Shown one piece after another: positions 1 to 17,745 of a DNA stretch of 64,000 nucleotides. The stretch's first letter is position 1; each line of letters starts with the position of its first letter. Source of the DNA: Parvularcula sp. BBD 1991-13. GTDB taxonomy: Bacteria; Pseudomonadota; Alphaproteobacteria; Caulobacterales; Parvularculaceae. The position numbers were made by a program, and so were the translations under genes. The notes below the pieces were generated by a model. That model did no database searches and was not told where the DNA came from. It saw only the letters and a list, made by a program, of their open reading frames with translations. The stretch covers positions 253,001 to 317,000 of the forward strand of contig LYSZ01000003.1 in assembly GCA_001657385.1 (NCBI GenBank), written 5' to 3'.

Positions 1-65
1 TTTAAATCATCTAAAACCAGCTCTTCATCTGACTCTTCCGGCGGAGCATCTGTGTCATCCGTCAT
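1..65 (-). CDS. Partial small acidic protein, N-terminus only
   Basis: An ATG at 65-63 opens a frame that runs off the left edge, giving MTDDTDAPPEESDEELVLDD and onward. An AAGGA Shine-Dalgarno-like sequence lies about 14 bp upstream. It starts 37 bp after the HDO stop, on the same strand, so it is probably the fourth gene of that operon. The visible part is strongly acidic (D/E) with two prolines, has no signal peptide and no recognisable domain. It could be a carrier, a precursor peptide or an ordinary acidic protein; 21 residues cannot decide. Confidence 0.5.
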   Translation of the reverse strand, partial: MTDDTDAPPEESDEELVLDDL

Positions 66-102
66 CTCGTTTTGTCCTATCCTTGAAAAGCGATGATTTA
101 GA

Positions 103-1152
103 CTAATTTTGCTTTTTAAGCAGCTTCGACTCCCGCCACTCTCCCGACGTAAGGGCATCAAGAATATTGTCGTAGAGCGTAGTCAGGATCGCGATGTGTA
201 GACCTACGCCCATCAATACTGCTCTCTGTCGCTCCACATTATTTTCACAAAGAGGGCCAACTACACTGCGACCCCAGCCCTCTCCGTGTTCTACATCTCC
301 AGCCAGGTGATCCGACATGTATTTCATGTCACTTGCTGGCGTCCCGGTTCGGCACCAGGCATTCACAATGACTTCAAGCTGACTGGGCACCAAAAATTCG
401 GTCGCAAACATCATTCCGATCAAATAGAAGTGCCGATCTCTTCGAAATCCGTTTAAAGCGTAAGCGTTGAAATGCCTAAGCTCAGATGTGAAGTAATTCT
501 CGGCCGAGAGAATTGAATCATCTGTCTTTAAACCGGCCGATGCCATCTGCTTCAGTCTCATTGTTGCATGGAAGCTGTCCAATTGGCCACGACCCATTTC
601 GTCGTAAAAATTATCAATAATTTCAAGTGCCGGAGACCCTGAAATCCCAGGCAGCAGTAGCGATAACAAGTGCACGAAATTCAAATCACAAGGGTTTTCG
701 GATGCCAATATGTATCCGAGTTCCGGCTTTGTCGCCTTGCTGGAGATATATGCGAAGAGTGGGTGGTTTATGGAACAACTAGAATTGTTACAGATGCCCT
801 TAATTTCATCTGTAAGTTTTTTTTGTGTTAGGGGCAATTGAAGCTCATTTCCGACTCCAACAATTTGACTGTACCCTTGCAGATACTGGTCATACGACAA
901 AAGCAACAAGGACGCGGCAGGCAAATATGCCCAGCCACATTCGCTGTCCCTTTCCCCGACTAAGCGCGCCGTGAGAATTTCGTAGACCGCAGAGTGCACA
1001 GTGCGATCTGGCGACTCGCCATTACTAAACAGATCCCCCACAGTCTGATTCAACTTTGCAAAATCCGATTGCTCAAGTTGGGAGCTTGCTTCAACGGCAT
1101 GGTTGCTTTCGAAGATCGAGTAAAAGTTCTGCATATTTGCGCTACACTTCAC
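103..1152 (-). CDS. Heme-oxygenase-like diiron oxidase/oxygenase (HDO; iron-containing redox enzyme family)
   Basis: This 349-residue protein has the Haem_oxygenas_2 (PF14518-like) signature in its C-terminal two thirds. Visible ligand candidates are E185 and H195 (DEMGRGQLDSFH, the usual E-x-G-x-G-x5-H), E252 (ATEF), and H282, D286 and H289 (DHLAGDVEHGEGW). Known HDO enzymes (UndA, BesC, SznF, CADD) use a non-heme diiron centre and O2 to cut C-C bonds or hydroxylate amino-acid-like substrates. The first ~150 residues are not recognised. The start is a GTG that overlaps the aminotransferase stop (GTGA), so translation is coupled. Family assignment is strong; substrate and product are unknown. 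The AT-rich composition differs from the chromosome to the right. Confidence 0.85.
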   Translation of the reverse strand: MKCSANMQNFYSIFESNHAVEASSQLEQSDFAKLNQTVGDLFSNGESPDRTVHSAVYEILTARLVGERDSECGWAYLPAASLLLLSYDQYLQGYSQIVGVGNELQLPLTQKKLTDEIKGICNNSSCSINHPLFAYISSKATKPELGYILASENPCDLNFVHLLSLLLPGISGSPALEIIDNFYDEMGRGQLDSFHATMRLKQMASAGLKTDDSILSAENYFTSELRHFNAYALNGFRRDRHFYLIGMMFATEFLVPSQLEVIVNAWCRTGTPASDMKYMSDHLAGDVEHGEGWGRSVVGPLCENNVERQRAVLMGVGLHIAILTTLYDNILDALTSGEWRESKLLKKQN

Positions 1153-2285
1153 AATATATCAAGGCTACGTGCAGCCGATTCGCTCAAGTTCATATTGCTC
1201 CTTCTCAAAAACTCTTGCAGGCTGGATCGCGGCATCAGGCTGTTGAGTCTGACGAATCCCGGAAAACCCGTTGTGTCGAAGAAAACTTCGTCCATAGAAA
1301 TAAGGGCACTTGGATCGGCGGATACTTTCACGAAGGAAAAATATCCTGAATTTGCATTTAGTGGGTCGCGGATTGCGCCGCATTCGACCAGAAACTCATG
1401 TCGTCTCGCGATCAATGAAAGAAGCTTCGTGTTTGATACTGAACTGTTCAACCAATCCATTATGTAGCGGGAAGCGCGCAAGTCTAAGTAAGAACCAGCC
1501 CCTGACGTATTTGCGTAACAATAACGCAGTTCTTCGCGCCAGTCTTTGGGGTGAATACAATACGCAAATCGCAATCCGTGAGTGGCGGCCGCTTTCGTCG
1601 GGCAACAATTTCGGAAAGTTAGCTCTGGATTCAGGGAGCTCGTGATCTCCGGCGAAAAGGCGTCATGCCATTTTAAATACTGAAACGCCCCATCCACAAA
1701 AACGAAATTCTCAGTTCTAGCCTGCCATTTACTTACTTCTTCGATGATACTCGGAGGTATAGGGCGTCCAGCAAACCAAATCGGATCACAAAGAATGAGC
1801 GGCAAACTAGCTTCATTCGGAAGGCTCACACGGGGCTCTTCGGAGAGCATGGAAGCCTGATTTAAAGCAACCAATTCGATTCCAAGAACATTCGCTAAAA
1901 AGTAGTAAGTGTAATATATGGGCTGGAAGTAACCAACTCTGTCAAATCCCGCCCGTTTCAGCAGTAGCATTTGGGCTGTTATCAAGGGCGATAAGCCCGC
2001 CGTCACAAATATCTCTTCGATGTCCGGGGAACGCTCAGAGCGACTCGCGTGAAACTTCTGGATAGCTTTGTGAAGTTCTTCACTATCGTTCTGAAATCTA
2101 TAGGGTAATAGCTCGGACGTGATAAGTCGGTCATGTTCATGAAGGGCGAACATGGAATCTACAAGGTCGTGCTCACAATACCAGTCGCTAACAAAGACAC
2201 GCCCCTGTCTATGTCTGCAGTCATAGTCCAGCCGTTTGTGCGCCCGCAGAAGGGCGTCGTGATTTTGAAGAGAATCGCGTCCCAT
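1149..2285 (-). CDS. PLP-dependent aminotransferase, fold-type I (class I/II)
   Basis: The 378-residue protein follows the class I/II aminotransferase pattern. A cofactor phosphate-binding turn is seen near residue 95 (TAGLSP), an NP-x-NPTG-like loop near 166-175 (CDPIWFAGRP), the pyridine-binding Asp at D198 (FVDGAF) and the Schiff-base Lys at K231 (CPTKAAATHGLR). The C-terminal small domain is complete. The ATG follows the SDR stop directly (TAGATG), and the stop overlaps the HDO start. It may make or use an amino-acid-like intermediate for the HDO, but it could also be a decarboxylase or lyase of the same fold. The motifs are divergent (GAF replaces the usual EAY), so substrate specificity cannot be read. 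Confidence 0.8.
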   Translation of the reverse strand: MGRDSLQNHDALLRAHKRLDYDCRHRQGRVFVSDWYCEHDLVDSMFALHEHDRLITSELLPYRFQNDSEELHKAIQKFHASRSERSPDIEEIFVTAGLSPLITAQMLLLKRAGFDRVGYFQPIYYTYYFLANVLGIELVALNQASMLSEEPRVSLPNEASLPLILCDPIWFAGRPIPPSIIEEVSKWQARTENFVFVDGAFQYLKWHDAFSPEITSSLNPELTFRNCCPTKAAATHGLRFAYCIHPKDWREELRYCYANTSGAGSYLDLRASRYIMDWLNSSVSNTKLLSLIARRHEFLVECGAIRDPLNANSGYFSFVKVSADPSALISMDEVFFDTTGFPGFVRLNSLMPRSSLQEFLRRSNMNLSESAARSLDIL

Positions 2286-3011
2286 CTACGGAAACGCCGT
2301 CCTAGTCAAACCACCGTCAATGATTATGTTTTGTCCTGTCAGGTATGAGTTTTCCTTACTTACCAACCATGAGACCAATGAGGCCACCTCAGACGGTTGG
2401 CCCAGCCGCCCGACCGGAATGTACCTTTCTACATCAGCAAGCGCTTCATCGGAAAAGGCTTCCTTGGCGGCCTCAGTCATGATGTACCCAGGTGCCACCG
2501 AGTTAATAAGGACGCCGTGAGAAGCGAACTCAGGCGCGAGCGACGTAGTCAATCCATCCAAACCAAATTTGGTTGCACAATACACCGAGTTCCTAGGATT
2601 TCCTCGAACGCCCCAAAGCGATGTAATATTTACAATTTTTCCGTAGGAATTCAATTTCATATAGCCCAAAGCGCTTTGGCAAAGGCGAAATGCGCTTCTC
2701 AAATTGACATCCACCATTCGGTCGAAATCATCAGGGGCATACTCTATCGAATCGCCTTTGATATTAATGCCTACATTATTGACGATAACATCGTATTGGC
2801 CGGCGGAAACATGCTTGCAAACGAATTCGACGTCCTTTCTCTTGCCAAAGTCAGCTGCTAGGTAGCTTGCAGAATCTGCAACATGGCTGGGTTTATCAGG
2901 GCCTGTGCCAGTGATCGTGCAATCGAACCCATCAGCGATAAGCCTACTAGCGATTGCCCCACCGATTCCTCTCGTGCCTCCAGTCACCAAAGCCTTGTAT
3001 GACATATTCAT
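2286..3011 (-). CDS. SDR family oxidoreductase (FabG-like)
   Basis: A classical short-chain dehydrogenase of 241 residues. It has the NAD(P) glycine motif TGGTRGIGGAI near residue 10, NNVG in place of NNAG, catalytic Ser in NITSLWG and the YCATK pair, and it ends in the family-typical IDGGLTRT tail. Length is normal. It is the first gene of the minus-strand cluster; the aminotransferase ATG abuts its stop. The family reduces ketones or oxidises alcohols with NAD(P)H. Here it probably tailors the product of the aminotransferase/HDO pathway, but a fatty-acid type reductase cannot be excluded. The start is an ATG at 3011. Confidence 0.9.
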   Translation of the reverse strand: MNMSYKALVTGGTRGIGGAIASRLIADGFDCTITGTGPDKPSHVADSASYLAADFGKRKDVEFVCKHVSAGQYDVIVNNVGINIKGDSIEYAPDDFDRMVDVNLRSAFRLCQSALGYMKLNSYGKIVNITSLWGVRGNPRNSVYCATKFGLDGLTTSLAPEFASHGVLINSVAPGYIMTEAAKEAFSDEALADVERYIPVGRLGQPSEVASLVSWLVSKENSYLTGQNIIIDGGLTRTAFP

Positions 3012-3990
3012 TCCTTACGTTCGGCCGAAGTTTAGCAGGCGCAATCAAAAGACTACTGCCGCTAAATCTGGCTTGCATATTCAATAGTGAGTTTCATGAA
3101 TTTATTTTCATCAAATAAAGTGAATGCTAAATACCCACCTTTATTTAATCGTATCGCAAATTGACTGCGTTCACCAATCCCCCGAAGTCACTATCTTGAT
3201 AAAATATCGAAATAGTTCGAAGGAAAATCAACCCCCTAATGTTGACTCAGATGTTCCGATTTGAGGAGTTTAAACTCAGCAATAGGCATTTGTGCTCGCG
3301 TCGGCGTCACGCATCGAGCATCAAATCCGGACGAGCACCGCGAAAGTTGGCCGCTCTCTGGCATACAAGCGTTGAATGCTAGTTGCTAATCTTGAAGTCT
3401 GGGAACGTTCGCTTTTCTGAGTTTACGAGTGCCTTGCTTAGGGTGTAGTAAGCCTATGACAATGGCAAATTACTGCCTATTTTCAGACCTTCATTTTTAC
3501 TCATCGGATGTCACCTTTGGGCCAAATATACCCATTCGACGCGCCGATCACTTACGTCGGCTTTTGCGCGCGTAGCTGTCGTGTAGAACGCAATTTGGTT
3601 TCGGCGAAAGATCGCCAATGGCGGGCGGCGACGTTTTCGGATCGAATGTCTGTTTTGCGAGCGACTTTTGTCGGTTCACTGTGACCGATAATTTTATTTT
3701 TATCGGACATATGCTTGTCGATCAGCAGCAAGGAATTCATATTCGTTTGCCGTGTGCGACCGGTATTGATGCGGATTGTTAAGTCGCTCGCTTTTTCGTC
3801 ATGACAATAGCCTATGACCTCTCGTGTTGAGCTGAGAGACTCGGGTCATTCTAAACTGTGCGAACCTTTACAGGCATCAGCTTGCCTTATTGAATAACTT
3901 CGGATTTACAGCAGGCCGGAGAGTTGATTCGCGATAGAATTGATGGTTAATTTTATTTGTGTTGATTTTATCTCAAATGGGGAGATCGCA
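3012..3990. other. Gene-poor AT-rich gap
   Basis: No convincing gene is seen in nearly 1 kb. A 62-codon minus-strand frame near 3552-3740 lacks a good ribosome site or any recognisable motif. The segment must hold the promoter of the SDR operon (leftward) and that of the protease gene (rightward), but no clear -35/-10 pair stands out. Long AT-rich gaps like this contrast with the tightly packed chromosome right of 17.8 kb. Confidence 0.5.
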
Positions 3991-4114
3991 ATGAGCGAAG
4001 AAAAAGAGATTAACCCAGAGTAATACAGCTGACGATCCCGTCGTCTCTGAGACTTTTTTTGACAATATCGAAAGCCCAAATAACGCCGAAGACTTAGAAA
4101 ATGTCCCTGGCTTC
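3991..4114 (+). pseudogene. Out-of-frame natural N-terminus of the serine protease (apparent +1 frameshift)
   Basis: A GGGGAG ribosome site is followed by ATG at 3991, which encodes MSEEKEINPE and then hits TAA at 4021. In the +1 frame the sequence is open from 3995 (behind a TGA at 3992) and runs straight into the protease, encoding an acidic stretch (NTADDPVVSETFFDNIE...). Skipping the single T at 4021 (GAG-T-AAT) joins the two into one continuous acidic N-terminus. This could be a single-base mutation, an assembly error or programmed +1 shifting at GAG-TAA. Confidence 0.55.
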
Positions 4115-4855
4115 ATGTTTCACGACCCAGAGTGGGAAGAAACGATCGACGTTGACGGTTTAGATTTGAACGGGCCTGCTGCGGGATTAAGCTATACTCA
4201 GCCAGAGACAGTTTGCGGTCGCGATGATAGGGCAAAAATTACCAACACTACAAGCGCGCCATATAAGTTTATTTGTAAATTATTTATCACTGCGGCCAAT
4301 GGGCGTAATTACATCGGGTCTGGTTTTTTTATTGGTCCACGCTGTATTATAACAAGTGGTCACTGTGTTCATTCAAACGGCGGCTGGGCGCGGTCTATTC
4401 GCGTTGTGCCGGGAATGAATGGCCGTGTTGCTCCTTTTGGAAGCTTAACTAGTAATCGGTTTAATAGTGTTACCGGCTGGACTAGAGACAAAGACCCCAA
4501 CTATGATCATGGCGCTGTAATCCTACCTAATAATAGCCTCTATAATCGCGTACGCGGCCATTTTGGCGTGCGCCAAGCAAATGGCCTACCTTTGTTGAAC
4601 AACAGCGGGTATCCGGGCGATAAAAATCCAAGTACTGAGCAATGGTATAATGCAGGTCGTGCGACGCAAAACACGGGGTTGATGTTCAAATACATGATTG
4701 ATACCGCAGGTGGCCAAAGCGGAAGCCCTGTATGGACTGGCTCGGGCAGTAGCGGATTAGTTGCTGGGGTACATGGCTATGGCGGTTGCCCGAACAAGGC
4801 GGTTAGAGCGCAGGGATATGTTCTACAAAGATGGTCGGAGTGGAAGCGTCTCTAA
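4115..4855 (+). CDS. Trypsin-like serine protease, V8/glutamyl endopeptidase type (S1)
   Basis: Numbered from the first in-frame ATG (4115), the triad is H83 (TSGHCVH), D131 (NYDHGAVIL) and S202 (GGQSGSPVW), with the usual spacing of glutamyl-endopeptidase-like S1 peptidases. The ~50 residues before the catalytic domain are acidic. No ribosome site precedes this ATG. The probable original start is at 3991 in another frame (see the adjoining entry). No Sec signal peptide is seen, so the protease may act in the cytoplasm or leave by a leader-dependent exporter. Four cysteines in the domain could form disulphides. It stands alone between two gene-poor gaps. Substrate unknown; an island-encoded processing protease is only a hypothesis. 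Confidence 0.8.
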   Translation: MFHDPEWEETIDVDGLDLNGPAAGLSYTQPETVCGRDDRAKITNTTSAPYKFICKLFITAANGRNYIGSGFFIGPRCIITSGHCVHSNGGWARSIRVVPGMNGRVAPFGSLTSNRFNSVTGWTRDKDPNYDHGAVILPNNSLYNRVRGHFGVRQANGLPLLNNSGYPGDKNPSTEQWYNAGRATQNTGLMFKYMIDTAGGQSGSPVWTGSGSSGLVAGVHGYGGCPNKAVRAQGYVLQRWSEWKRL

Positions 4856-4978
4856 CTGCTAATGCTAATGTGCCGTTTCTTTTTCGTTTAAGAGTGCGCT
4901 TGTATTTCATATAGACACGGCGAAAAGCGAGGCATTCCCAACATCTGTTACAAGGTTTACGGGCAAGATCAATCTTAT

Positions 4979-5119
4979 ATGTCCGATAACTCGCAATATT
5001 GGATGCTTCAATGTCTGGAATGTGGAGGCAGTCTGCCGATCCGCCGTCTACGCTCGAACGGCAGAAACGGACCAAAAGCAGACTTACTTCACTATAAAAT
5101 AAGTTCGGCGCGCTTATGA
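4979..5119 (+). CDS. Possible 46-residue protein with a CxxC motif
   Basis: An ATG frame encodes a short protein with QCLECGGSLPIRRLRS near its N-terminus, resembling half of a zinc ribbon (one CxxC only). No good ribosome site is visible, and the frame lies in a long gap. It may be a remnant of a larger gene. Listed because the CLECGGS segment looks protein-like rather than random. Confidence 0.25.
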   Translation: MSDNSQYWMLQCLECGGSLPIRRLRSNGRNGPKADLLHYKISSARL

Positions 5120-5342
5120 AGTTAGAAATCTCGCCCCCTCTTAGTTTTATATAGCGTGATCAGTAGTAAATACCGTATAATGATTATATCGAATGCAAAT
5201 TCATTCGATCAAGCGTGAAATCTTGCACTGACGTTCAGTCTATGAGCTGGATGGCGTCGAATAAGAGGCTCCGGCCTCAAATAAGGCGCGCCGTCGTCAG
5301 TGCGGATTTCAACATCCAACCCACCAGACGAAAGGCTGTGCT

Positions 5343-5438
5343 ATGTCCAACATAATTTATTTTCCTTCAAAACGCTTGCTTGCTGCAATCAGAGCGATGG
5401 TTGAAGAACAGAAACAAACACCAAAACCCAAGCAATAA
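5343..5438 (+). CDS. Possible 31-residue basic peptide
   Basis: ATG at 5343 follows GAAAGG at a workable 8-bp spacing and encodes MSNIIYFPSKRLLAAIRAMV and eleven more residues, ending in a Lys/Gln/Pro-rich tail and TAA. The first half could form a short amphipathic helix. It lies about 140 bp upstream of the LuxR gene on the same strand. No homologue recognised; coding status is uncertain. Confidence 0.3.
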   Translation: MSNIIYFPSKRLLAAIRAMVEEQKQTPKPKQ

Positions 5439-5575
5439 GCTTTATGCTTATCATAAGGCGTAAAGCTGGCTTCATTTACCCCCTCAACGCAAAGAGATTT
5501 TTAGAGTATTACAGCAATAATTATATAAATCGGCCCTTTATAATTCTGTAGGTCGAAACATTGAGGAAAGCGGCG

Positions 5576-6319
5576 ATGCGTTCTTTATTGCTGGATTTTA
5601 TGGATGAGCTAAGCGGTGCGAATACCGAGCAACAGGCAGGCGAATATTTGCTGGCTCATTTCCAGAATATAGGTTTTCTGGGCGGCAACATCTGGTTCGG
5701 CACTGGCAGCGGTGATCATCATGCTAACAACTCTGTCACGACGTACACCAAAGCATTTTTGGACTACCAGTATGGTTCCGATGTTTTGGATCATGTTGTG
5801 ATTAGTAAAATCGCTTCGCAAAGCACAACCCCGGTTAGATGTGGCTGGGACATTGAGTGTAAACGATACGCCAAAGGGTCTATTGATTACGAGTTCGCAG
5901 CCTTTGCGCTGGATGAAAACAACAGGCGCAATGCGATTATTTTTCCGATCAAGACGCATGGGCTTCCCGGCAACTCCGGCGTCAGCGTTATCAGCGAGAT
6001 GGACCGGGAGACGTTTGACGCTGAGTTTGAACAAAAAGGGCAGCACCTCCACGACTGCGCTTTAGCGGCGCACGGTTACATGCAGCTATTACGTCGCAAG
6101 AAATTAAAGGAAGGCAAACCCGTTACGCTGACGGACCGGGAAAAAGAATGCCTGTCGTGGAAGGTGCGCGGATACAACAACAATGAAATTGCTGAAAAGA
6201 TGGGAATAACGGAAACGCGGGTGAACCAACTGCTCAGGCAAGCAAGAACACGTCTCAATGTGAAAAAAAGCTCAGAGGCGTTACTAAAGGCTGTATTATC
6301 CGGCCTGATTTCACCCTGA
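5576..6319 (+). CDS. LuxR-family transcriptional regulator (solo)
   Basis: The ATG at 5576 is chosen because GAGGAAAG lies 6-13 bp in front; an upstream TTG at 5561 would place that ribosome site inside the gene. The protein has 247 residues. The first ~165 look like an autoinducer-binding domain. Residues ~185-240 are a LuxR/GerE helix-turn-helix (LTDREKECLSWKVRGYNNNEIAEKMGITETRV). No luxI-type synthase is in the window, so it is a solo that could sense signals made elsewhere or by other cells. A strong GC hairpin follows. It may control island genes such as the HDO cluster or lipoprotein, but no operator is seen. Confidence 0.85.
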   Translation: MRSLLLDFMDELSGANTEQQAGEYLLAHFQNIGFLGGNIWFGTGSGDHHANNSVTTYTKAFLDYQYGSDVLDHVVISKIASQSTTPVRCGWDIECKRYAKGSIDYEFAAFALDENNRRNAIIFPIKTHGLPGNSGVSVISEMDRETFDAEFEQKGQHLHDCALAAHGYMQLLRRKKLKEGKPVTLTDREKECLSWKVRGYNNNEIAEKMGITETRVNQLLRQARTRLNVKKSSEALLKAVLSGLISP

Positions 6320-6365
6320 CAAGACGATCCAAAAAAAGTCTGCCCGAACGCTGGGGGGATGCAAC

Positions 6366-6420
6366 GGGGGGCTTTAGCCCCCCTTGCCAAGATGCGGCGT
6401 GTATTACGCCGCACATCTTG
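6366..6420 (+). terminator. Two successive hairpins after the LuxR gene
   Basis: GGGGGGC-TTTA-GCCCCCC at 6366-6383 is a perfect 7-bp stem. It is followed at 6388-6420 by CAAGATGCGGCGT / ACGCCGCACATCTTG with a two-base bulge. The first hairpin starts 47 bp after the luxR stop. There is no T-run, so termination may be Rho-assisted, or these may be structural repeats. Confidence 0.55.
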
Positions 6421-6605
6421 CAGGGCATGAAATGACCTGTGGGGCCTTTGTATTATGTTCTATAAGATTGAAGTAACTGGTTTTGGCCTAGTTCAGACGC
6501 TAACGATATGAAAATATATGTCTGAAAACCGGTCCGAATTTGCCGTAGCCAGCGCTTCAAAATAACCAAGCCAAAACGCTGAAGCCATCGGAAAACCCAG
6601 ACACT

Positions 6606-7241
6606 TTATCGTTCACTCCAATTGAACTCTCCGTAGTTCTGCTCATAAGCGACAGCATCAAAAAAGAGCACCTTGGCGTCTGCGAAAAGTGGCTCCACCT
6701 CTAAAGCGAGCTTCATAAGGGGGGCCTCAGGGCTGGACTGGTATTCGCCCTTGATATGATCGAGACGGCGTCGAATTGTAGCTAAGCTATCGAGTGTAGG
6801 TTTGAAATCACCTTGCCCAGATACAGGGTCTATCGCGACAATCCATTTTCCTTTCTCCTGATCATCTTTTGCGTAGAGCACCATGTCGGGGTCGAACCCG
6901 ATTGCAATGGTAGATGAGAATAATCCATAATCGCCTCGTTGTGACCGAGCATTGCTCTCGACCTCTAGTTTGGTTGACAGATAAGATAGCTCCACTAATT
7001 TTCTTCGTAATGTGATAGCTTCTTCTGGCTTTTCGAGTTTGTCTACAAGGATGTAATATTCGTCAGCAAGATCCTGCGCGTAGTAATGCGCTCTCGGAAC
7101 GAACCGGTTCCAAGCTTCGATTGCATCTTTCAAGAGATTGAGAGAAAAAGCGAAGATGGCGCTCAATACCACTACATATGCGATGAGACGATGTTGTAGC
7201 CATTCATTCTTGATCTCTTCAAGTGGATTAGATGTATTCAT
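6606..7241 (-). CDS. Membrane-anchored protein of unknown function
   Basis: A 211-residue protein not recognised as a known family. After a short charged N-terminus (~17 residues) there is one hydrophobic segment at about residues 19-37 (LIAYVVVLSAIFAFSLNLL). The remainder is soluble and rich in charged helices with coiled-coil character (residues ~50-105), then a mixed region and an acidic end. The arrangement suggests a single-pass inner-membrane protein. It is transcribed towards the LuxR gene. The long unlinked gap to the divergent lipoprotein gene makes joint function speculative. Confidence 0.65.
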   Translation of the reverse strand: MNTSNPLEEIKNEWLQHRLIAYVVVLSAIFAFSLNLLKDAIEAWNRFVPRAHYYAQDLADEYYILVDKLEKPEEAITLRRKLVELSYLSTKLEVESNARSQRGDYGLFSSTIAIGFDPDMVLYAKDDQEKGKWIVAIDPVSGQGDFKPTLDSLATIRRRLDHIKGEYQSSPEAPLMKLALEVEPLFADAKVLFFDAVAYEQNYGEFNWSER

Positions 7242-7734
7242 GTGGCGTATCCTTTTGCCGTGATAAGCAGGGGGACTTCTATATTAACTCACCATGAAAT
7301 GAGATTAATGTTTAAACATCAAGATACTCAAGAAAATATCTAGCTGCGCTCGAAGTATATATTTCTAGCCTTCCGACAAGAAAGATAATTTGAGCATCAT
7401 AAAATCGCCCACAATTGCCCACAGAAGACTACGGCAAGAATACTCTATTAATCAGTCATTTGCTGATATTGTCACGGTATCTGCTTTCGGCGATATTCAG
7501 AAGTTGCCTAAAGGCAAAACTTAGCCCAAAATGGATGTTCGTGGCTGAAATGGGCACGGCTGAACTTATCTCTAAAGCGGGCGTAACTATTCTTCGTTTG
7601 ATTAAAAATCCTGCGTAGCAGGCATACCTCATTTTTATTTCTAACTTTCAGTATTTATACTAATATTTGACATATAAATTCTCTGACACTTAAATATAAA
7701 GACTTCAGACAAATCCGGGGGGGGGGCACGGCGA
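7242..7734. other. AT-rich intergenic gap between divergent genes
   Basis: About 490 bp separate the divergent 6606-7241 and 7735-9765 genes, so promoters for both must lie here. A plus-strand frame (7415-7618) begins only with TTG and has no ribosome site; its last ~27 codons look weakly protein-like and may be a gene remnant. The segment ends in a G10 tract. Confidence 0.45.
7717..7726 (+). repeat. G10 homopolymer just before the lipoprotein start
   Basis: Ten consecutive G residues sit 8 bp upstream of the GTG start. Such tracts are prone to slipped-strand length change. Here the tract also occupies the ribosome-binding position, so its length could tune translation of the lipoprotein. 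Confidence 0.6.
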
Positions 7735-9765
7735 GTGTTTGGTTTTTATTCTAACGTATACTTTTGCAAAAGAAATCTGGCTAAGCGGATTGGGTTCGCA
7801 CTGGTTGCACCTACTTTATTGGTTTCTGCTTGCACATCGATCAAAACGGTCCCGGATCTCCTCCGCTCCGACTTAACGAGGATTGATGGAAGCAATAGGA
7901 CTGCAATCGAAGGCGTTCCCTACGCACTGCCCATGCTCCAATACGAACTGACGTTCACATATAAGCTCACAGAATGCTTCAATCCGGGTGGCCAACATCC
8001 CAAGGCAAACTACTACCTTCCTCCTTTGAAGAAGCAAAAAAACGGCAACGGTGAAGTCCCGAAAGGCGAATCTAGTAAACTAGACCCTGATGAAATCCGC
8101 AAAAAATCGAAAACGTACCATTACGAACAGTATAAGAAACAGTATCGAGACAAAAACTCTGAAGACAAAGACGATGACAATGCGGATAACATTGTCCCCT
8201 ACGATCAATTCGAAGACAAATATGCCGATAAAAACTTCGGCGACTACGATGTGGATATTACCCTGGAAGCATCACCGTCATTCGTGGAGGGTGAACGCTA
8301 CACAATAGACTATGACGCGTTGTCGAGCGTTTGGAAGACTTCCGTATTTGAGATCGCAATTCACGAAGAAACTGGCACCTTAAAGTCGATCAATATCTCA
8401 GCCGAAGACAAAACAGCGGAAGCCATTGGCTCCGCCACAAAGTTACTACTCGCTGGTGCAAATATCATCAATCCGGTTGAGGCGGACAAATTGGTTAGAA
8501 CCAACTTGCGAGCATCAGATGCCTTCAAGGGTACAAGCAAGGTAATTTGTACCAAAGCGGCTAACGACTTGGTTGAAGACAGAGATAGAGCGATCAAAGC
8601 TCTAGCCATGGCGTCTACAAATCTCGAAGCAGTCACTCAGGAAGTCGAACTGCTTAAACTCACCGTACGGTTTCAAGATCCCGCTTCTACGGTCAAAGAA
8701 ATCGAGCGCCTTATCAACAAAGCGAAGAGCGCTGAGCAAGCCGTTGAAACGGCTCAAAAGACTTTAGATGGCCTGAATTCCAAGCTTACAGTCACGGTTA
8801 AGCGCACTTGGCCGTCGGAGTTCTTCGAATTTACCGAGCACATTAATGATCGAGATAAAATTGAAAAGCACTGGATGACAAATCCACCGGGTGGCAAACC
8901 ACTTTTTGCTATAAAGAGCTTTAAACTAGCTCCCCCCGTCGGGGTAATAGGCAGAGAAATTCCTGGTCACGGTAAAAATAAACACTGCGGAACTTACTTT
9001 AAAGACAGCGAGCGCTTGCCAACCCCGAACATTATGGAATGCCTCATGGAAGAGCTTGAAGCGGCAATTCAATTGGTTGAAAAATCGCCGACCAAACCTT
9101 GTACAGAACTGACATCTTCAACCAGCCGCCCAACAGACAAAGAATGTCTCTGGAAGGCGGAAGAAGGTGTTACAGCCGCGCGTAATATAAATGACGACAA
9201 AGGCGTATTCGTGCGTCCGCCCGTTGCTGGTGAGTTGCAAATGTGTTTGGTTTCACAATCGAACATGACGCATGACCACGGAAAAATCCCCAAACTGCCA
9301 TGCACTCAAAACAGTCAAATAAAATTCAGCAAAACGTCTGCGATTGTCCCGCAGCTAGGGCAGCTTCGCTTCCTGCCTTTCACGAATGGGCCTTTTTCGA
9401 ATAACGCGCTTGCAATAGAGGTCGGCCAGAAGGGACACCTTCAAAAGTTTTCCTACAAACGAAGTTCAGCGCAGGCGGCTGGTCTGCTTGGCACTATATC
9501 GGATGCAGCGAAGCAAGTTGAGGCATTCCAAAAAGAGCGTGCGGATGCGGAATTAAAGGCAATTCAAACCGCGCGCGCTGAAGAAATTGCGATTTTGGAT
9601 TATGAAATCGCGTTGATGGAGAAAGAACAAAAACGGCTTGTACTTGAAAATCCTGACGCAAGTGCGATCGCCATCGCTGAAGAAACAGCGGCTCTTCAGG
9701 CGCAGATAGCTCTACTCAAAGCCCGTAAGGAATTAGTTGAGTTACAACAAAAGACCGACAATTAG
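7735..9765 (+). CDS. Large lipoprotein of unknown function, with coiled coils
   Basis: This 676-residue protein starts at a GTG behind a G-rich stretch. It has a basic N-region (KRNLAKR), a hydrophobic core and a lipobox LVSAC with C33, so it should be a lipidated envelope protein. Residues ~100-160 are very rich in Lys, Asp and Glu. Residues ~270-350 form a probable coiled coil. A second coiled coil occupies the last ~90 residues (many Ala, Glu, Leu and Lys). No enzymatic motif was found. It is a single-gene unit in the island, flanked by a gap and by the MITE-like element. The start is uncertain because no ATG occurs early in the frame. Confidence 0.75.
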   Translation: MFGFYSNVYFCKRNLAKRIGFALVAPTLLVSACTSIKTVPDLLRSDLTRIDGSNRTAIEGVPYALPMLQYELTFTYKLTECFNPGGQHPKANYYLPPLKKQKNGNGEVPKGESSKLDPDEIRKKSKTYHYEQYKKQYRDKNSEDKDDDNADNIVPYDQFEDKYADKNFGDYDVDITLEASPSFVEGERYTIDYDALSSVWKTSVFEIAIHEETGTLKSINISAEDKTAEAIGSATKLLLAGANIINPVEADKLVRTNLRASDAFKGTSKVICTKAANDLVEDRDRAIKALAMASTNLEAVTQEVELLKLTVRFQDPASTVKEIERLINKAKSAEQAVETAQKTLDGLNSKLTVTVKRTWPSEFFEFTEHINDRDKIEKHWMTNPPGGKPLFAIKSFKLAPPVGVIGREIPGHGKNKHCGTYFKDSERLPTPNIMECLMEELEAAIQLVEKSPTKPCTELTSSTSRPTDKECLWKAEEGVTAARNINDDKGVFVRPPVAGELQMCLVSQSNMTHDHGKIPKLPCTQNSQIKFSKTSAIVPQLGQLRFLPFTNGPFSNNALAIEVGQKGHLQKFSYKRSSAQAAGLLGTISDAAKQVEAFQKERADAELKAIQTARAEEIAILDYEIALMEKEQKRLVLENPDASAIAIAEETAALQAQIALLKARKELVELQQKTDN

Positions 9766-9896
9766 ATGAGAACCGATAATGTTGGCGTATTTATCGGCAT
9801 TGATAGTGATTAGAAAATTGCCTTCTATGCGCATCTGTCGCAATATTTTTAACTTCTAGCCGACCCTTCAGTTCGGACTATTAAGTGTCCGCTTTT

Positions 9897-10082
9897 GGCG
9901 GATTGTGTTGAAAAAGTCCCTTTTGGCATCTTAATGCGTATACGTCTGTAATATCATTTGAATTTGTGCGAAGCATTTGGAGTTTTAATCTGACTGATGC
10001 CGCGCGTTGAAAAATTCAACTAAGTTGTTGGAGCTTTCCACTTCACCGTTTTGCGGCCCCGACTTTTTCAACACAATCGGCG
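9897..10082. mobile_element. MITE-like element, 178 bp with 18-bp perfect terminal inverted repeats
   Basis: GATTGTGTTGAAAAAGTC at 9901-9918 is repeated exactly, inverted, at 10061-10078. The sequence GGCG flanks both ends directly (9897-9900 and 10079-10082), as expected for a 4-bp target-site duplication. The 142 bp between hold no gene; a small palindrome (GTTGAA-AAA-TTCAAC) lies at about 10008-10022. The end sequence resembles termini of several IS families, so the element was probably mobilised by a transposase encoded elsewhere. Confidence 0.75.
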
Positions 10083-10112
10083 GATTTCTACCACTCCGAT
10101 ATAACCTGAATA

Positions 10113-10460
10113 TTACGGATTCTTTCCGCGCCACTCCTGCCTGACGAGTTCTAACGCTGCCACAGCGGGGTCAACGCCCTGCGCGGCGGCGGCGGAGAAC
10201 CAGATCGCGGCTTCGAATAAATCCTTTTCAACACCAAGGCGGATCATGTAGGCCATGCCGAGGCGGAACTGCGCGTAGGGGTGATTGTTCTTCGCAGCGA
10301 TTTCCAGCCAGTCGAAAGCTTCTTCATAATCACGCTCGACCTCAACACCGCGCACGTACCGCATGGCGATCTGACATTGCGCGGCGGGATCGTCCATTGC
10401 TTTTTCTTCCAGCACTTTCATGTCAGTTGTATCGTCAAGCTCGAACATAGCGCTACTCAT
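10113..10460 (-). CDS. Sel1-repeat (TPR-like) protein
   Basis: The start is placed at ATG 10460 (MSSAMFELDD), overlapping the end of the tyrosine recombinase by 8 bp; the longer frame upstream is the antisense shadow of that gene. The 115 residues contain about two Sel1 repeats (AAQCQIAMRYVRGVEVERDYEEAF, then AQFRLGMAYMIRLGVEKDLFEAA). Sel1 proteins usually mediate protein-protein contacts. Co-transcription with the recombinase is likely from the overlap. Partner unknown. Confidence 0.75.
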   Translation of the reverse strand: MSSAMFELDDTTDMKVLEEKAMDDPAAQCQIAMRYVRGVEVERDYEEAFDWLEIAAKNNHPYAQFRLGMAYMIRLGVEKDLFEAAIWFSAAAAQGVDPAVAALELVRQEWRGKNP

Positions 10461-11124
10461 CGCGGCTGGTCGCTTGGAAAAGGCTGCGCAGCCAGCCCAT
10501 GAACGGCGGGAGCCAGCGCCGCCACTGAAACGGTGAAACACGCCACATGCGGCGAGCGATGCGCCGTTCTTCGGGTCCGTAAGCGCGCGCATAAATGCTG
10601 GTGACAGCAATATCAGCGTGTCCCATCCACCGTTGAAGCTGGTTGAGGCTGACCCCAGACATAAGCGCATGAACCCCGAAGCCATGGCGCAAACCTTTCG
10701 GGCTGCAATGTGGTCCCGGTGGAATACCCGCTGCGCTCATCATGTCTTTGATCCACAGGTAAGCCGTGTTGCGCGTGACGGACCAAAGCCGCTGCTCGTC
10801 AAAAAACTGCGGATCGAGCCGAAAGGTGCGGACAAGCTCGGCGATCAAGCTGCCCGGCACGGGCACGCTGCGGAAGACAGGTTTATCCCCACGCTTCTTT
10901 AAGCTGCGGAAGATGATTGCCCTGCCTGCAACGTCGATGCGCGCAGGCGTCAATTGCAGGGCTTCGCTGATCCGGCACCCGGTATGGATGAGCACCAGGG
11001 CGAACGCCCGCCGATGAGGTGCGGCTTTTGACGCGGCCCAGATCATGGCGTCGCGCTCCTGCGGATTGATGTATAATCGCCGCCCCGCGCCGTCATACAG
11101 CGATAAAGTCGTCTTCTGCCCCAA
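10453..11124 (-). CDS. Tyrosine site-specific recombinase (short, catalytic domain only)
   Basis: This 223-residue protein matches the catalytic domain of phage-type integrases. The first Arg is in HTGCRISEAL, the Lys in SLKKRGDK, then KGLRHGFG (the HxxR box with Lys replacing the first His) and WMGH, with the nucleophile in SIYARAYG. The N-terminal SAM-like and arm-binding domains are missing, so it is either a stand-alone short recombinase or a truncated integrase. The frame begins at a TTG at 11124, so the real start is unsure. It lies leftward in the mobile segment, overlapping the Sel1 gene. Confidence 0.85.
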   Translation of the reverse strand: MGQKTTLSLYDGAGRRLYINPQERDAMIWAASKAAPHRRAFALVLIHTGCRISEALQLTPARIDVAGRAIIFRSLKKRGDKPVFRSVPVPGSLIAELVRTFRLDPQFFDEQRLWSVTRNTAYLWIKDMMSAAGIPPGPHCSPKGLRHGFGVHALMSGVSLNQLQRWMGHADIAVTSIYARAYGPEERRIARRMWRVSPFQWRRWLPPFMGWLRSLFQATSRDE

Positions 11125-11697
11125 GTGAACGCACTCAACATCTTACGTTGACCCTCCCGGCCATAGGCGGTGGATTCCTGCCGTTCTTGACAGAATTCGT
11201 TATTCCGTATTGCCGCCGGGAGGCTTGAGGCTAGCCATGACTTTACGTCCTCACGCGGTCAGTGTTGCGCTCAAACCACGTTGGAAAAATATTCGCAAAA
11301 CTCGCATTGCGCAAAGGAATAATACGCTTTAACGAATTTTGTATTTATACAGATTAAATGAACTTCCAATTTAAAGAGGCGTATACAGAAGGGTATATAT
11401 TCACTGCTACCCTTCCTGATTCTATAGAGCGCGGCTTTTGTGCAACACTTCTGAATCCTGTATCTCGCATGAACGTTCAGGATGTGGAAAATAGCCTCGC
11501 GGTATCCTTAGCATAGTATGCCGCTTTGTGATGAGCATTTGTTGAGTATGGAGTGTGTTATGAAAGTTCTCGCCAATTTTGCGCATAGCGTCACCAAGCA
11601 CGCCTTAAAGCCGCACATTTAAGGAAAGCCAATTCAGCAAGCCTAACAACACGCCTTGGCGCGTGAACGGTTTCGCTTTGCCTGTTGGGGAACGGTT
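11125..11697. other. Divergent intergenic region with small candidate frames
   Basis: This gap separates the leftward recombinase from the rightward coupling-protein gene. Besides the 52-codon frame at 11358-11516, a 20-codon frame at 11560-11622 (MKVLANFAHSVTKHALKPHI) has GGAG 8 bp in front and could be a leader peptide for the coupling-protein operon. An AT-rich stretch at 11300-11400 could hold the promoters; no clear consensus pair was found. Confidence 0.4.
11358..11516 (+). CDS. Possible 52-residue protein
   Basis: The ATG frame MNFQFKEAYTEGYIFTATLP continues to ...NVQDVENSLAVSLA and TAG. Amino-acid composition is protein-like, with alternating polar and hydrophobic residues suggesting beta strands followed by a helix. 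No ribosome site is obvious. Family not recognised. Confidence 0.4.
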   Translation: MNFQFKEAYTEGYIFTATLPDSIERGFCATLLNPVSRMNVQDVENSLAVSLA

Positions 11698-13680
11698 ATG
11701 AAACTGCGTCATTTGAACAAGAATCCGGGGACACCGAATATCCACGCGCTTTGCGGGACAGGGTTTGCGGTTGTCGCCTCGCTGACATGGCCGGGGGCGG
11801 CTGGCGGATTTCAGGATCAGTTGTTCCCGGCCTTCATGGGGTTTCTCGCCGTGATGGGCTACGGCAAGGCGGCTGCGGGCCTGCGGCTTAATTATCATCG
11901 CCGCGCCGCCCGTAACGAAGCATTGAAAAAATCCGACACGCTAGGCGCGGCGCGGTTCGCCGCTCTTTCCGAACGGCGGCGGGCGGGCTTGCATGACCTT
12001 AAAAACGCGCTGTTGTTGGGGACGGCGGACGGCCTGCCGCTCACCCTGCCGCGTGGGCGCAGCCTCGCTGTTGAGGCCGCGCCGGGAACGGGCAAAAGCT
12101 CCTGCATCCTATCGCTTTGCATCTTGCAAGGGGTGATGACCGGATCAAGCTTGATTGTCCAAGATGTGAAATTCGAGTTTTATTATCTCTGGGCGGATAT
12201 TCTGATCGCCTTGGGCTTTCGGGTCTACGTGAATAACCTGTCCCTCAATCCCGACTTCCCGCACGATAACAGCAACCCGTTCAGCCCCGTGATCGACGCG
12301 GCGCAATCGGACGACGGCCAGCATGAGACCTTCACCATTGCCGAGGCGCTGGCTCGCACCATCATCAAGGGCGACGCGGACGCGAAGTCGAAATACTTCC
12401 TGAACGGAGATCGCAACGTCTTCGTGGCGATCACCGTGGCGCTGGCCGTGTTGTATCCTGAACGCTGTTACCCCGGCGAAGTCTACCGCACGATTTTCCA
12501 TCCTGCCGCGTTTGAAAACCTCTTGATCGAAGCGCGGGCCAGTGAAGCCCTGTCCGGCGATCTGTCGGCCATTGCCGCGCACCTCCTGAAAAAACGCGAC
12601 GATGCGCCTGAACATCTGGAGAATTTCCGCACCGGGGCGAGCAACGCCCTGTCGTTCTTCAAGCCGTCCAGCGAGCTTGGGTCGCTCGGGGCCAGTCACG
12701 AGTTTGACCCCAAAACTTTACGCGATCCGGACAAGCCGCCCGCTGTCGTCTTCGACCTTTTGCCGGGTGATCGCATTGAAGTGTTTGGCCCCGCCAATTC
12801 ATTGACGCAGACCAGCCGCGTACAGGCGTTGCGTCGGCACAAGGAAGGCCGTCACGTCATCTTCCTTCTGGATGAGATGACTAACGCGCCTGTACCGGGT
12901 GTCGTGGAAGCGATTGAGATGTGCCGGAGCTGGAACATCGACATGGTGCTGGCGTTCCAGTCACACGCGGCGTTGATCGCCAAGTACGGCAAGCAACAGG
13001 CCGAAAGCATCCTGTCATCCTGCGCGGAAATCTACTTTTCCGTTTCCAACTATGCGCGGGCGGAAGAACTATCCAAGCGCATCGGCAATCACACGGTCAA
13101 AACCACGTCGTTTAATTTCGATGAAAGCGGCAAGCCCGGAACGGGCTATGGCGAAACGTCTCACGCGCTCATGTCGCCGGACGAGATTTTGGCGATGCCG
13201 AAAGACGAAGCCCTGTTGCTGGTCCCCGGCCTGCGCCCCGTCAAGTTTGAAAAAACGCCATGGTACGAGGTGGAGCCGTTCAAAAGCTGGGCGGGCGACA
13301 ATCCCCATGAGGGGCACGCCAAGTCGCCCCGAACATGGTTTTCGCTGCGGTATTCAGAGGACGCGCAAAAGCTAAGTGCGCCTGTTCTGGATGACTTTTT
13401 CCAGCGCATGAAAACAGCGCTGCGCGTTGAAGCTGCCGCGCATAGAACGCCGCGCCTCAAGCGCGTACGCTTCACGGATTTTATCTGGCTTCCGGCTGTC
13501 GCGGGCTTGGCCGCGCTGGTTCTCATGATCGGCACGCCGCATGTGCTGTTTGAATACGCGGCGCGGGCGGATGCGCGGGGGCATTACGCCTGCACCTATG
13601 TCGGCGCGTCGGGTTTGCGCATCGTTAAACAGCCTTCGTCCTGTTCACTGTTTCGCTTTCTCCGGTTCCAGACATCATAG
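11698..13680 (+). CDS. Type IV secretion/conjugation coupling ATPase (VirD4/TraD-like)
   Basis: ATG 11698 (MKLRHLNKNP) is chosen for its GGGGAA ribosome site; an upstream TTG at 11656 lacks one. The 660-residue protein has N-terminal hydrophobic segments (~16-58), a Walker A motif AAPGTGKSS (K133) and a Walker B motif VIFLLDEMTN (D392, E393). A TraG/TraD C-terminal region follows (SNYARAEELSKRIGNHTV). Such hexameric ATPases hand DNA-relaxase complexes to a type IV channel. Unusually, a hydrophobic segment lies near the C-terminus (FIWLPAVAGLAALVLMIGTP). No relaxase or mating-pair genes are in the window, so the element is partial here or depends on a helper. Confidence 0.85.
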   Translation: MKLRHLNKNPGTPNIHALCGTGFAVVASLTWPGAAGGFQDQLFPAFMGFLAVMGYGKAAAGLRLNYHRRAARNEALKKSDTLGAARFAALSERRRAGLHDLKNALLLGTADGLPLTLPRGRSLAVEAAPGTGKSSCILSLCILQGVMTGSSLIVQDVKFEFYYLWADILIALGFRVYVNNLSLNPDFPHDNSNPFSPVIDAAQSDDGQHETFTIAEALARTIIKGDADAKSKYFLNGDRNVFVAITVALAVLYPERCYPGEVYRTIFHPAAFENLLIEARASEALSGDLSAIAAHLLKKRDDAPEHLENFRTGASNALSFFKPSSELGSLGASHEFDPKTLRDPDKPPAVVFDLLPGDRIEVFGPANSLTQTSRVQALRRHKEGRHVIFLLDEMTNAPVPGVVEAIEMCRSWNIDMVLAFQSHAALIAKYGKQQAESILSSCAEIYFSVSNYARAEELSKRIGNHTVKTTSFNFDESGKPGTGYGETSHALMSPDEILAMPKDEALLLVPGLRPVKFEKTPWYEVEPFKSWAGDNPHEGHAKSPRTWFSLRYSEDAQKLSAPVLDDFFQRMKTALRVEAAAHRTPRLKRVRFTDFIWLPAVAGLAALVLMIGTPHVLFEYAARADARGHYACTYVGASGLRIVKQPSSCSLFRFLRFQTS

Positions 13681-13691
13681 GAGCATTTTTC

Positions 13692-14141
13692 ATGACGGTT
13701 GATGATCGTTACCAGTCGGCCCTTTACGAAAAGGCCCGCAAGGCGTTTGTCGCATCTGTTCGCGCCGACACGTTTAGCGTCCCCCCGGACAAGATCGACC
13801 AGGCGGTGAAGATTGCGAAGGTCAAGGACCGGGCGGACCGCATAACACGAAAAGCAGAAGCCCATTTCGAGCGTCGCAAGGGCCGCGCCGTTCAACGCGA
13901 ATATAGCAAGCTGATGCGCGAGAATCCCATGAAGGCCGCGAATGACTTGTCACGCGGACCGAAACCACCCGCCTTGGGGCCGTCCCGCGAGCATTTGCAC
14001 CGTGAACGAATGATGGATCGGGCGGAAAAGACTGTTCGCCTCAATCATTTGAGGCGGCTCGATTCCATTGACCGGGCCAAGAACAGCATGACCCGTTCGA
14101 TTACCCTGTCGCGCAACAATCAACTGCGCCGTTCCCGATAA
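13692..14141 (+). CDS. Basic helical protein of unknown function
   Basis: A 149-residue protein very rich in Arg and Lys, starting 11 bp after the coupling-protein stop behind AGGAG. It is predicted largely helical and has no membrane segment. The composition suggests nucleic-acid binding, for instance an accessory DNA-transfer protein, but no motif proves it. It lies in the same transcription unit as the coupling ATPase. Confidence 0.65.
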   Translation: MTVDDRYQSALYEKARKAFVASVRADTFSVPPDKIDQAVKIAKVKDRADRITRKAEAHFERRKGRAVQREYSKLMRENPMKAANDLSRGPKPPALGPSREHLHRERMMDRAEKTVRLNHLRRLDSIDRAKNSMTRSITLSRNNQLRRSR

Positions 14142-14262: not shown

Positions 14263-14268
14263 CGCGTC

Positions 14269-15782: not shown

Positions 15783-16166
15783 ATGGAGCATACCGAAAAC
15801 GGCTCATCTGAAATTGACAAGAACGATGCGCCGGGTGCTCCATCCTCTCTGGCGCTGATGATTGATTACGATAAGTATCTTTCCCAACTCGAGGAGTGGG
15901 ATGTAACAGAAGATCAGAAGCGAGAATTTATTTCCGCGCTGTGGTATTTGCTGCTGGCTTTTGCCGAACTCGGCTTCGATATTCACCCGGCGCAAGCAGC
16001 GCAAAATGCAAACCTGAAAAAGCTCATAAAACCGCCTGAAACCCAAGAAAATACTGGGGTTTCCGGGCACGATATGATATATTCAAACCCAATTAATCGC
16101 ACACAAACTATAAACAATAACGGGCCTGTAAAACGCCCGAACGAAAGGAATCCACGCCATGAGTGA
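15783..16166 (+). CDS. Unknown protein overlapping the serine recombinase gene
   Basis: A 127-residue protein with a strong AGGAGG ribosome site. Its middle (LSQLEEWDVTEDQKREFI, then ALWYLLLAFAELGFDIHPAQ) is helical and hydrophobic, resembling short proteins often found directly before large serine recombinases in mobile elements. Its last codons overlap the recombinase start by 8 bp, implying translational coupling. It could be a recombination accessory factor, an inference from position. Confidence 0.6.
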   Translation: MEHTENGSSEIDKNDAPGAPSSLALMIDYDKYLSQLEEWDVTEDQKREFISALWYLLLAFAELGFDIHPAQAAQNANLKKLIKPPETQENTGVSGHDMIYSNPINRTQTINNNGPVKRPNERNPRHE

Positions 16167-17745
16167 TGTCATTAAAAAAGTAAAAACAAAGGCGGTAATT
16201 TACACGCGCGTCTCATCTGTAGCTCAATCGGAAAAAGGGCACGGCCTTGCGTCGCAAGAGACGCGATGCCGCGAATATGCACGGATGAAAGGCTACCGGA
16301 TCGACAAGGTGTTTTCAGACAAGGCCGTTTCCGGCCTCATCGTGGACCGTCCCGGCATTCAAGACATGCTGCGCTACATTCATAAGAACCGAAGTGATGG
16401 CGACTATGTTGTTCTCATCGACGATATTAGCCGTATTGCACGAGACGTCGAGGCGCACCTAAACCTACGCCGCGCGATCGACAATGCGGGCGCGAAGCTG
16501 GAAAGCCCGTCTATTGAGTTCGGCGAAGATTCCGATTCCATCCTCGTTGAAAACCTGCTGGCTTCTGTTTCACAGCATCAACGGCAAAAAAACGCCGAGC
16601 AAACCAAAAACCGGATGCGGGCGCGACTGCAAAACGGCTATTGGCCGTTTAACGCCTGCGTCGGCTTCAAATACAAAAAGGTTGACGGGCGCGGGAAAGT
16701 GCTGACCCGCGACGAGCCTTTAGCCTCCATTATTCAAGAAGCCTTGGAGGGCTTCGCCTTCGGGCGCTTCCAGACGCAAGCCGAAGTGAAGCGCTATCTT
16801 GAAAGCCAGCCCGCATTCCCGAAAGACCACAGGGGCGAAGTCACTTACGAGCATGTGCATCGCCTGATGCGTCGCCCGATCTATGCGGGGATGGTCGCCC
16901 ATGAGGCGTGGGGCGTTTCCATGCGCAAGGGCCAGCATGAGGGGTTGATTGATTTTGAAGCCTATCAGCGCATCCATGCGCGCTTGCAGGAAGCCCCCAA
17001 AGCGCCAGCGCGGGCCGACATCAACGCTGATTTTATCTTACGCGGCGCTGTCGCTTGCGGCTCCTGCGGCCATCCGCTCACCGCGTGCTGGTCCACGGGT
17101 AAAAGCGGCAAGAAGCACCCTTACTATCTTTGCTTCCAGAAAGGCTGCGCAAGCTATCGGAAGTCGATCCGGCGCGATCAGTTGGAAGGGGACTTTATGA
17201 CCCTCTTGGATCGCATGACGCCGGGCCAGAAGTTTGTGACCTTTGCACGGGGTATGTTCCGCGACATCTGGAACGGCCTCATGGGACAGACGGAAGCCAA
17301 GCGCAAAACCTTGCAGGCGCATATCCAGCGCACGGAACAAAAAGTCGAACAGCTCATGGACCGCATTGTCGAGGCGGAGAGCACAGCCCTCATCAAGTCC
17401 TATGAGAAGCGCATCGCCAAGCTCGAAACAGAAAGATTTGTGCTTGCGGAAAAGCTTGCCAAAACCGGGCAATCAAAGGGGACTTTCGAAGAGATGTTCG
17501 AACACGCCCTTGCGTTCCTCTCAAACCCGCAGAAATTGTGGGATTCAGGCGTTCCCGAACACCGTCAAACGGTCATCAAACTGGCCTTTGAAACCCGCCC
17601 GCGCTACTGCCGCGAAAACGGGTTTTCGAACCCCGAATACTCGTTACCGTTCAAGCTGTTAGGGGACTTTTGCGGGCAGAACTTTGTGATGGCGGAGAGG
17701 AAGGGATTCGAACCCTCGAAGGGCTTTGGGCCCTTACTCCCTTAG
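16159..17745 (+). CDS. Large serine recombinase/integrase
   Basis: This 528-residue recombinase begins with a resolvase domain (~10-150) whose nucleophile is S19 in YTRVSSVAQ, with catalytic arginines in DRPG and DDISRIARD. A recombinase domain follows (~165-270), then a zinc ribbon (CGSCGH...CFQKGC, ~295-330) and a coiled coil (~375-440). These enzymes integrate and excise elements between short att sites. The last 18 residues (MAERKGFEPSKGFGPLLP) are encoded by the antisense strand of tRNA-Ser, so the natural C-terminus is set by the integration site. It is probably the enzyme that placed the element here; the short tyrosine recombinase is an alternative. Confidence 0.9.
   Translation: MSDVIKKVKTKAVIYTRVSSVAQSEKGHGLASQETRCREYARMKGYRIDKVFSDKAVSGLIVDRPGIQDMLRYIHKNRSDGDYVVLIDDISRIARDVEAHLNLRRAIDNAGAKLESPSIEFGEDSDSILVENLLASVSQHQRQKNAEQTKNRMRARLQNGYWPFNACVGFKYKKVDGRGKVLTRDEPLASIIQEALEGFAFGRFQTQAEVKRYLESQPAFPKDHRGEVTYEHVHRLMRRPIYAGMVAHEAWGVSMRKGQHEGLIDFEAYQRIHARLQEAPKAPARADINADFILRGAVACGSCGHPLTACWSTGKSGKKHPYYLCFQKGCASYRKSIRRDQLEGDFMTLLDRMTPGQKFVTFARGMFRDIWNGLMGQTEAKRKTLQAHIQRTEQKVEQLMDRIVEAESTALIKSYEKRIAKLETERFVLAEKLAKTGQSKGTFEEMFEHALAFLSNPQKLWDSGVPEHRQTVIKLAFETRPRYCRENGFSNPEYSLPFKLLGDFCGQNFVMAERKGFEPSKGFGPLLP
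17690..17745. other. Island/chromosome junction at the tRNA-Ser 3' end (probable att site)
   Basis: AT-rich mobile DNA ends and compact GC-rich chromosome begins here. The 3' half of tRNA-Ser is shared with the end of the serine recombinase gene. The matching second att copy (a repeat of the tRNA 3' end) was not found to the left, so the other island end lies outside the window. Confidence 0.65.

Follow-up and report, generated by a model that had tools for sequence, protein, structure and literature searches.

HrmI and BelK, of the hormaomycin and belactosin pathways, are L-lysine 6-N-oxygenases which convert L-lysine to 6-nitronorleucine; two further N-oxygenases, RohS and SznF, act in the azomycin and streptozotocin pathways, respectively. 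Here we describe an operon at the very start of a 64,000-nucleotide stretch of Parvularcula sp. BBD 1991-13 (contig LYSZ01000003.1; the whole stretch is called the window, and its position 1 is G000:C4:253001). It encodes a heme-oxygenase-like diiron enzyme (HDO) together with a short-chain dehydrogenase/reductase (SDR), a pyridoxal phosphate (PLP) enzyme and a membrane protein. It is a real and compact HDO operon, without counterpart elsewhere in the material searched. Our reading, which we hold tentatively and with considerable doubt, is that this operon is cargo of an integrative mobilisable element and produces a small molecule that is N-oxygenated and derived from an amino acid.

According to PMC13108848, more than 10,000 HDOs are known, about a dozen of which have been functionally validated, and the role of residues outside the metal site in HDO substrate and reaction is an open question. 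Since uncharacterised HDOs are many, the operon is no surprise in itself. The HDO of the window has kept its metal ligands and lost near-universal residues, and would provide a test of how outer residues set the substrate and reaction of an HDO. The three-enzyme set is compact and could be transferred whole into E. coli, and the HDO cassette is seen here as cargo of a mobilisable element. The operon is probably a small HDO biosynthetic cassette and is a good candidate for deorphanisation. No description of a gene set comprising SDR, PLP enzyme, HDO and membrane protein was found among the open-access papers listed, including the portions read of PMC13108848, PMC13185094 and PMC10367076.

The four genes of the operon

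The genes, in order of reading, are:

2286..3011, minus strand: gene 1, classical FabG-like SDR, 241 amino acids (PF13561, E 2.7e-51; 2ph3, E 2.1e-43)
1149..2285, minus strand: gene 2, divergent fold-type I PLP enzyme, 378 amino acids (hhalign E 2.3e-13; residue alignment)
103..1152, minus strand: gene 3, HDO, 349 amino acids (PF14518, E 1.6e-25; ligand set)
1..65 and onward to G000:C4:252373, minus strand: gene 4, orphan membrane protein, 230 amino acids, first 21 codons within the window (hydropathy)

The three complete open reading frames (3011-2286, 2285-1149 and 1152-103) are joined just as a first-pass annotation, made from the letters of the window, had described: the stop codon of gene 1 abuts the start codon of gene 2 (TAGATG), that of gene 2 overlaps the start of gene 3 (GTGA), and the ATG of gene 4 comes after a gap of 37 bp from the HDO stop. 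Its numbering of the PLP lysine and of the six metal ligands is likewise correct. Because the full gene set was not found elsewhere, the unity of the operon rests on its own abutting genes and not on conservation. Scans for promoters and terminators around the operon gave no excess over shuffled sequences.

By its sequence gene 1 is a classical SDR closest to the 3-oxoacyl-ACP reductases. Classical SDRs are marked by the motifs TGxxxGxG and NNxG and by a catalytic Asn-Ser-Tyr-Lys set, and gene 1 possesses the full complement (TGGTRGIG at 10, T10-G17; N78, N103, S131, Y144 and K148). Matches to PF13561 and PF00106 bear out its earlier identification, and its best solved relative is the 3-oxoacyl-ACP reductase 2ph3 (152 bits). 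It has its catalytic residues in common with FabG-type SDRs, but falls under the FabG equivalog cut-off (NCBIfam TIGR01830; 191.5 vs 297.75 bits).

The product of gene 2 gave no significant Pfam match. In fold-type I enzymes a lysine binds PLP, an aspartate the pyridine ring and an arginine the phosphate; alignment to nine class-I aminotransferases (the hhalign match listed above) shows that these are kept as K231, D198 and R239, together with R346. The NPxNPxG motif, which holds a cofactor-contacting asparagine, reads DPIWFAG at 167. The class of the enzyme is recognised from this alignment and from weak NCBIfam matches. All of the NCBIfam matches lie far below cut-off: GntC (1.4e-9; 37.4 bits vs 415), VioD (8.2e-6; 24.9 vs 390.9) and CobD (8.3e-5). 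GntC and VioD, the best models, are PLP-dependent arginine cyclases. Arginine cyclisation of this type was considered and rejected, because the GntC model also matches five class-I aminotransferases at 6.1e-64 or better; the match is generic and gives no specific lead.

Gene 4 runs past the window edge (G000:C4:253065-252373, equivalent to L002:17066-16374). Its product has 35 acidic and 18 basic residues, both termini being acidic, and two strongly hydrophobic 19-residue segments at 71-89 and 147-165 (mean hydropathy 2.33 and 2.14). The 21 codons within the window were therefore misleading: what had been called an acidic small protein, a possible carrier or peptide partner of the enzymes, is a membrane protein, so that such a partner is not supported. 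A small soluble acidic carrier protein or peptide was rejected for gene 4 on account of these two segments and the lack of any Pfam match at E up to 10. Nor has gene 4 a relative in PADLOC, PHROG or PDB sequences, an NCBIfam match better than 0.097, or a match in plasmids or viral contigs. Only two of 289 class genomes contained one, the genome itself and another with a 28% stretch interrupted by internal stops.

The diiron enzyme and its relatives

The HDO exceeds the PF14518 gathering score by a wide margin (90.3 bits vs 28.9), and its set of three histidines and three carboxylates (E185, H195, E252, H282, D286 and H289) stands at the family positions and is invariant across 41 aligned sequences, in agreement with its first identification. 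The predicted structure has the helical heme-oxygenase fold and superposes on HrmI, an amino-acid N-oxygenase and the nearest solved structure. All six ligands align with those of HrmI in sequence. As far as fold and sequence were compared, the check on ligand superposition proposed earlier thus gave nothing against the diiron assignment. The enzyme would plausibly bind two metals and activate O2. Identity to HrmI/BelK in the structural alignment is 18%, and the similarity to RohS and SznF is lower. The operon also differs from the HrmI and BelK systems in having neither a 2-oxoglutarate (2OG) oxygenase nor a nonribosomal peptide synthetase among its four genes.

Fifteen columns common to at least 85% of 40 relatives differ in the window HDO. 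At four of these all 40 relatives agree on another residue (given in brackets), namely H161 (D), A175 (K), E116 (W) and H319 (R), and at two more, Y183 (W) and Q258 (R), 39 of the 40 do so. Wherever the HrmI fragment covers the changed columns it carries the common residue, as judged by reading the alignment. Since the metal site is kept and its surroundings have changed, the substrate has probably changed as well.

A tree was built from 46 rows, comprising the 41 aligned sequences, four plasmid relatives and one HrmI fragment (residues 135-327). Left free, it grouped the window HDO with sequences of Klebsiella, Paraburkholderia, Pseudomonas, Burkholderia, Tistrella, Symploca, Ramlibacter and Nostoc (15 rows; 99/95) and left HrmI in the remaining 31 rows, together with Agrobacterium and Halomonas. 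The position of the window HDO is unsure because its branch is long (4.19 vs a median of 0.38). Holding the window HDO with the 11-row HrmI group lowered the log-likelihood by 21.05 (approximately unbiased test, p-AU 0.053), a value to be read with the long branch and the limited span of HrmI in mind. Kinship with HrmI is thus disfavoured on these alignments, not rejected, and the exclusion from the HrmI clade given by the free tree had to be softened.

The HDOs closest in sequence belong to clusters of Pseudomonas, Burkholderia and Tistrella (27-35% over 197-333 residues), whose neighbouring genes are entirely different from those of the operon: as named by eye from translations, they are cysK-like, HMGL-like, HDO, FAD protein, ATP-grasp and MFS. 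The inspected loci, L024-L029, had the cysK-like and HMGL-like genes and most had FAD, ATP-grasp and MFS genes; L024 had only a partial set. The HrmI-group loci of Halomonas and Billgrantia, also read by eye, comprise ferredoxin, HDO, 2OG oxygenase, ThiF-like, aminotransferase, ArgC-like and DapF-like genes. On a Klebsiella variicola plasmid (L014) an isonitrile-synthase-family gene lies about 8 kb from the HDO gene.

For a wider survey of neighbourhoods genomes were scanned with a three-sequence alignment, which matched 588 stretches, of which 451 were relatives, and the best 80 loci were kept. Open reading frames of at least 200 amino acids were compared with home-made profiles for class-I aminotransferases and for SDRs, the latter seeded from SDRs of the surveyed HDO loci. 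The resulting counts are lower bounds, since several loci lie on short contigs and PLP enzymes of other families escape the profile. A class-I aminotransferase-like frame was found in four of the 80 loci (L034, L035, L051 and L083) and an SDR in eight (L028, L031, L033, L052, L064, L066, L070 and L092); none had both. As a pattern, SDR, PLP enzyme and HDO thus rarely occur together in these loci, an outcome that had been named earlier as counting against the proposed cassette. By eye, L037 has a class-III-type aminotransferase beside the HDO, missed by the PLP profile, and in L031 (Symploca) the SDR directly follows the HDO.

Orthologs of the PLP enzyme were not found in plasmids, in viral contigs or, by a pattern scan, in genome contigs, and only one of 60 relatives, the genome itself, has it; it is missing from the other 59, which include 27 members of the genus. 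At E 0.01 it had matches in 12 of 385 class genomes, its own included, the others being weak (1.2e-6 at best); five of these, when scanned, were all class-I aminotransferases. A tblastn search with it against the HDO loci yielded a single match (E 0.59), and a kinship with the aminotransferases of the Halomonas, Billgrantia and Longispora HDO loci was considered and rejected (hhalign E 0.26). The HDO was matched in 28 plasmid records (23-34% identity over 51-70% of the query) and in no phage or viral contig. Including its own, the genomes with an HDO match numbered 9 of 385 for the class (E 1e-10), 5 of 398 for the phylum (1e-12) and 34 of 398 for the order (1e-8); the best match outside its own genome among the 398 order genomes had an E of 5.9e-15 and 28% identity.

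Proposed pathway and its alternatives

The observations from which we start are the tight four-gene array with the membrane protein last, the intact diiron ligands, the HrmI-like fold, the SDR catalytic residues, the PLP lysine and the surrounding mobile element. In the pathway that we tentatively propose, the substrate would be an amino acid or one of its derivatives, whose amine nitrogen the HDO would oxidise, yielding a hydroxylamine, an oxime or a nitro group. The alpha carbon would be the site of action of the PLP enzyme, in a transamination, a decarboxylation or an elimination; the resulting carbonyl would be reduced by the FabG-like SDR; and the membrane protein might serve in export of the product, protection or response. 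An amino-acid-derived small molecule had been suggested from the first, and this part of the suggestion stays plausible, the nearest solved structure being that of an amino-acid N-oxygenase; its carrier or peptide has been given up.

Several findings weigh against this pathway. Five residues common to HrmI and to 39 or 40 of the 40 relatives (D161, K175, W183, R258 and R319) are H, A, Y, Q and H in the window HDO, and with their loss the substrate, and even the class of reaction, may differ. In the free tree the enzyme stands outside the HrmI group, on its long branch. FlcD, which PMC13108848 lists as having an altered metal nuclearity, reaches a score as high as that of RohS. Gene 2, without the usual asparagine motif, may code for something other than an aminotransferase, and its product is not specially related to the aminotransferases in clusters of the Halomonas type. 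No gene for a redox partner was noticed in the operon, and the complete gene set was found nowhere else in the searched material.

The same lost residues would fit an HDO that instead cleaves C-C bonds in, desaturates or rearranges an amino acid or acyl substrate, with the SDR, closest as it is to 3-oxoacyl-ACP reductases, working on the same carbon chain. HDOs of identical ligand set perform very different reactions, as PMC13108848 reports, and we regard this alternative as rather unlikely, the likeness to an amino-acid N-oxygenase standing on the other side. That the genes are decaying or idle, picked up by the element, with the very long HDO branch reflecting relaxed selection, is improbable: conserved residues have indeed been lost and no orthologs of the PLP enzyme or membrane protein were found, but the four frames are intact with tight junctions, and the enzymes retain every metal ligand, the PLP lysine K231 and the catalytic residues of the SDR.

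Equally doubtful is a module of chemical defence or signalling, in which a small molecule would trigger the membrane protein and so shield the element or its host from phage or rivals. The membrane protein is the last gene of the operon, which occupies a slot between relaxase and coupling-protein genes. At this place a sister element (G397:C15) has genes for a PifA-like KAP NTPase (1.4e-116), a PDC-M30/M41-like pair and a DUF3800 protein, and the cargo of another MobA element in the Parvularcula genome itself includes an OLD-like AAA ATPase. However, none of the four proteins matched a family of PADLOC-DB (2023 library) at E up to 1, the slots of the two other elements inspected also hold other kinds of genes, neither 'heme oxygenase-like' nor 'diiron' appeared among the literature matches listed, and the characterised HDOs covered by the review PMC13108848 are largely biosynthetic. 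Its most specific version, an immune or competition module in which the membrane protein would sense or resist an N-oxygenated amino-acid derivative made by a strongly diverged diiron N-oxygenase, the PLP enzyme and the SDR, at a site where the sister element has genes of the phage-defence type, seems to us very improbable.

The mobilisable element

The operon is flanked by MobC/MobA genes (L002:14033-15738; named by eye) and, further on, by a coupling-protein gene, after which come five small genes and, next to a tRNA-Ser gene, a large serine recombinase gene. Together they mark an integrative mobilisable element with a cargo slot, extending from L002:14033-15738 to window position 17745. The G+C content is 0.47-0.49 in the operon genes, 0.55-0.59 in the relaxase, coupling-protein and recombinase genes, and 0.66-0.71 in two flanking genes. 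Because of this contrast, the mobile backbone, the absence of the PLP enzyme from all 59 other relatives and the weak best HDO match in the order, we infer that the operon is acquired cargo; the earlier placing of the HDO, PLP enzyme and SDR on an island is borne out by this context. Other features of the element within the window are:

4115-4855, plus strand: cargo, weak trypsin-like match (Pfam)
5561-6319, plus strand: LuxR-type protein (GerE domain, 5.9e-11; N-terminal part without Pfam match)
6606-7241, minus strand: cargo, protein with one hydrophobic segment, no Pfam match
7735-9765, plus strand: cargo, 676-amino acid protein, lipoprotein-like by eye, no Pfam match
11656..13680, plus strand: type IV coupling protein (PF02534, 7.8e-34)
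16159..17745, plus strand: large serine recombinase (PF00239, 7.4e-26; PF13408; PF07508)
17690-17780, minus strand: tRNA-Ser gene, overlapped by the 3' end of the serine recombinase gene

The LuxR-type protein is encoded close to the operon and could be its regulator. Rfam models matched only tRNA in window 1-18000, and no exact direct repeats of at least 13 bases were shared between window 17501-17900 and L002:12001-17001. Of 28 genomes belonging to the genus, 9 had a MobA match, and the surroundings of two other elements were inspected. The sister element G397:C15 (L123) has the same backbone order at 29-63% identity and other cargo. The other MobA element in the Parvularcula genome itself (G000:C5; L125, L126) lies near a contig end and carries, beside its OLD-like AAA/TOPRIM ATPase, a HigBA-like pair (by eye) and a LuxR-type regulator.
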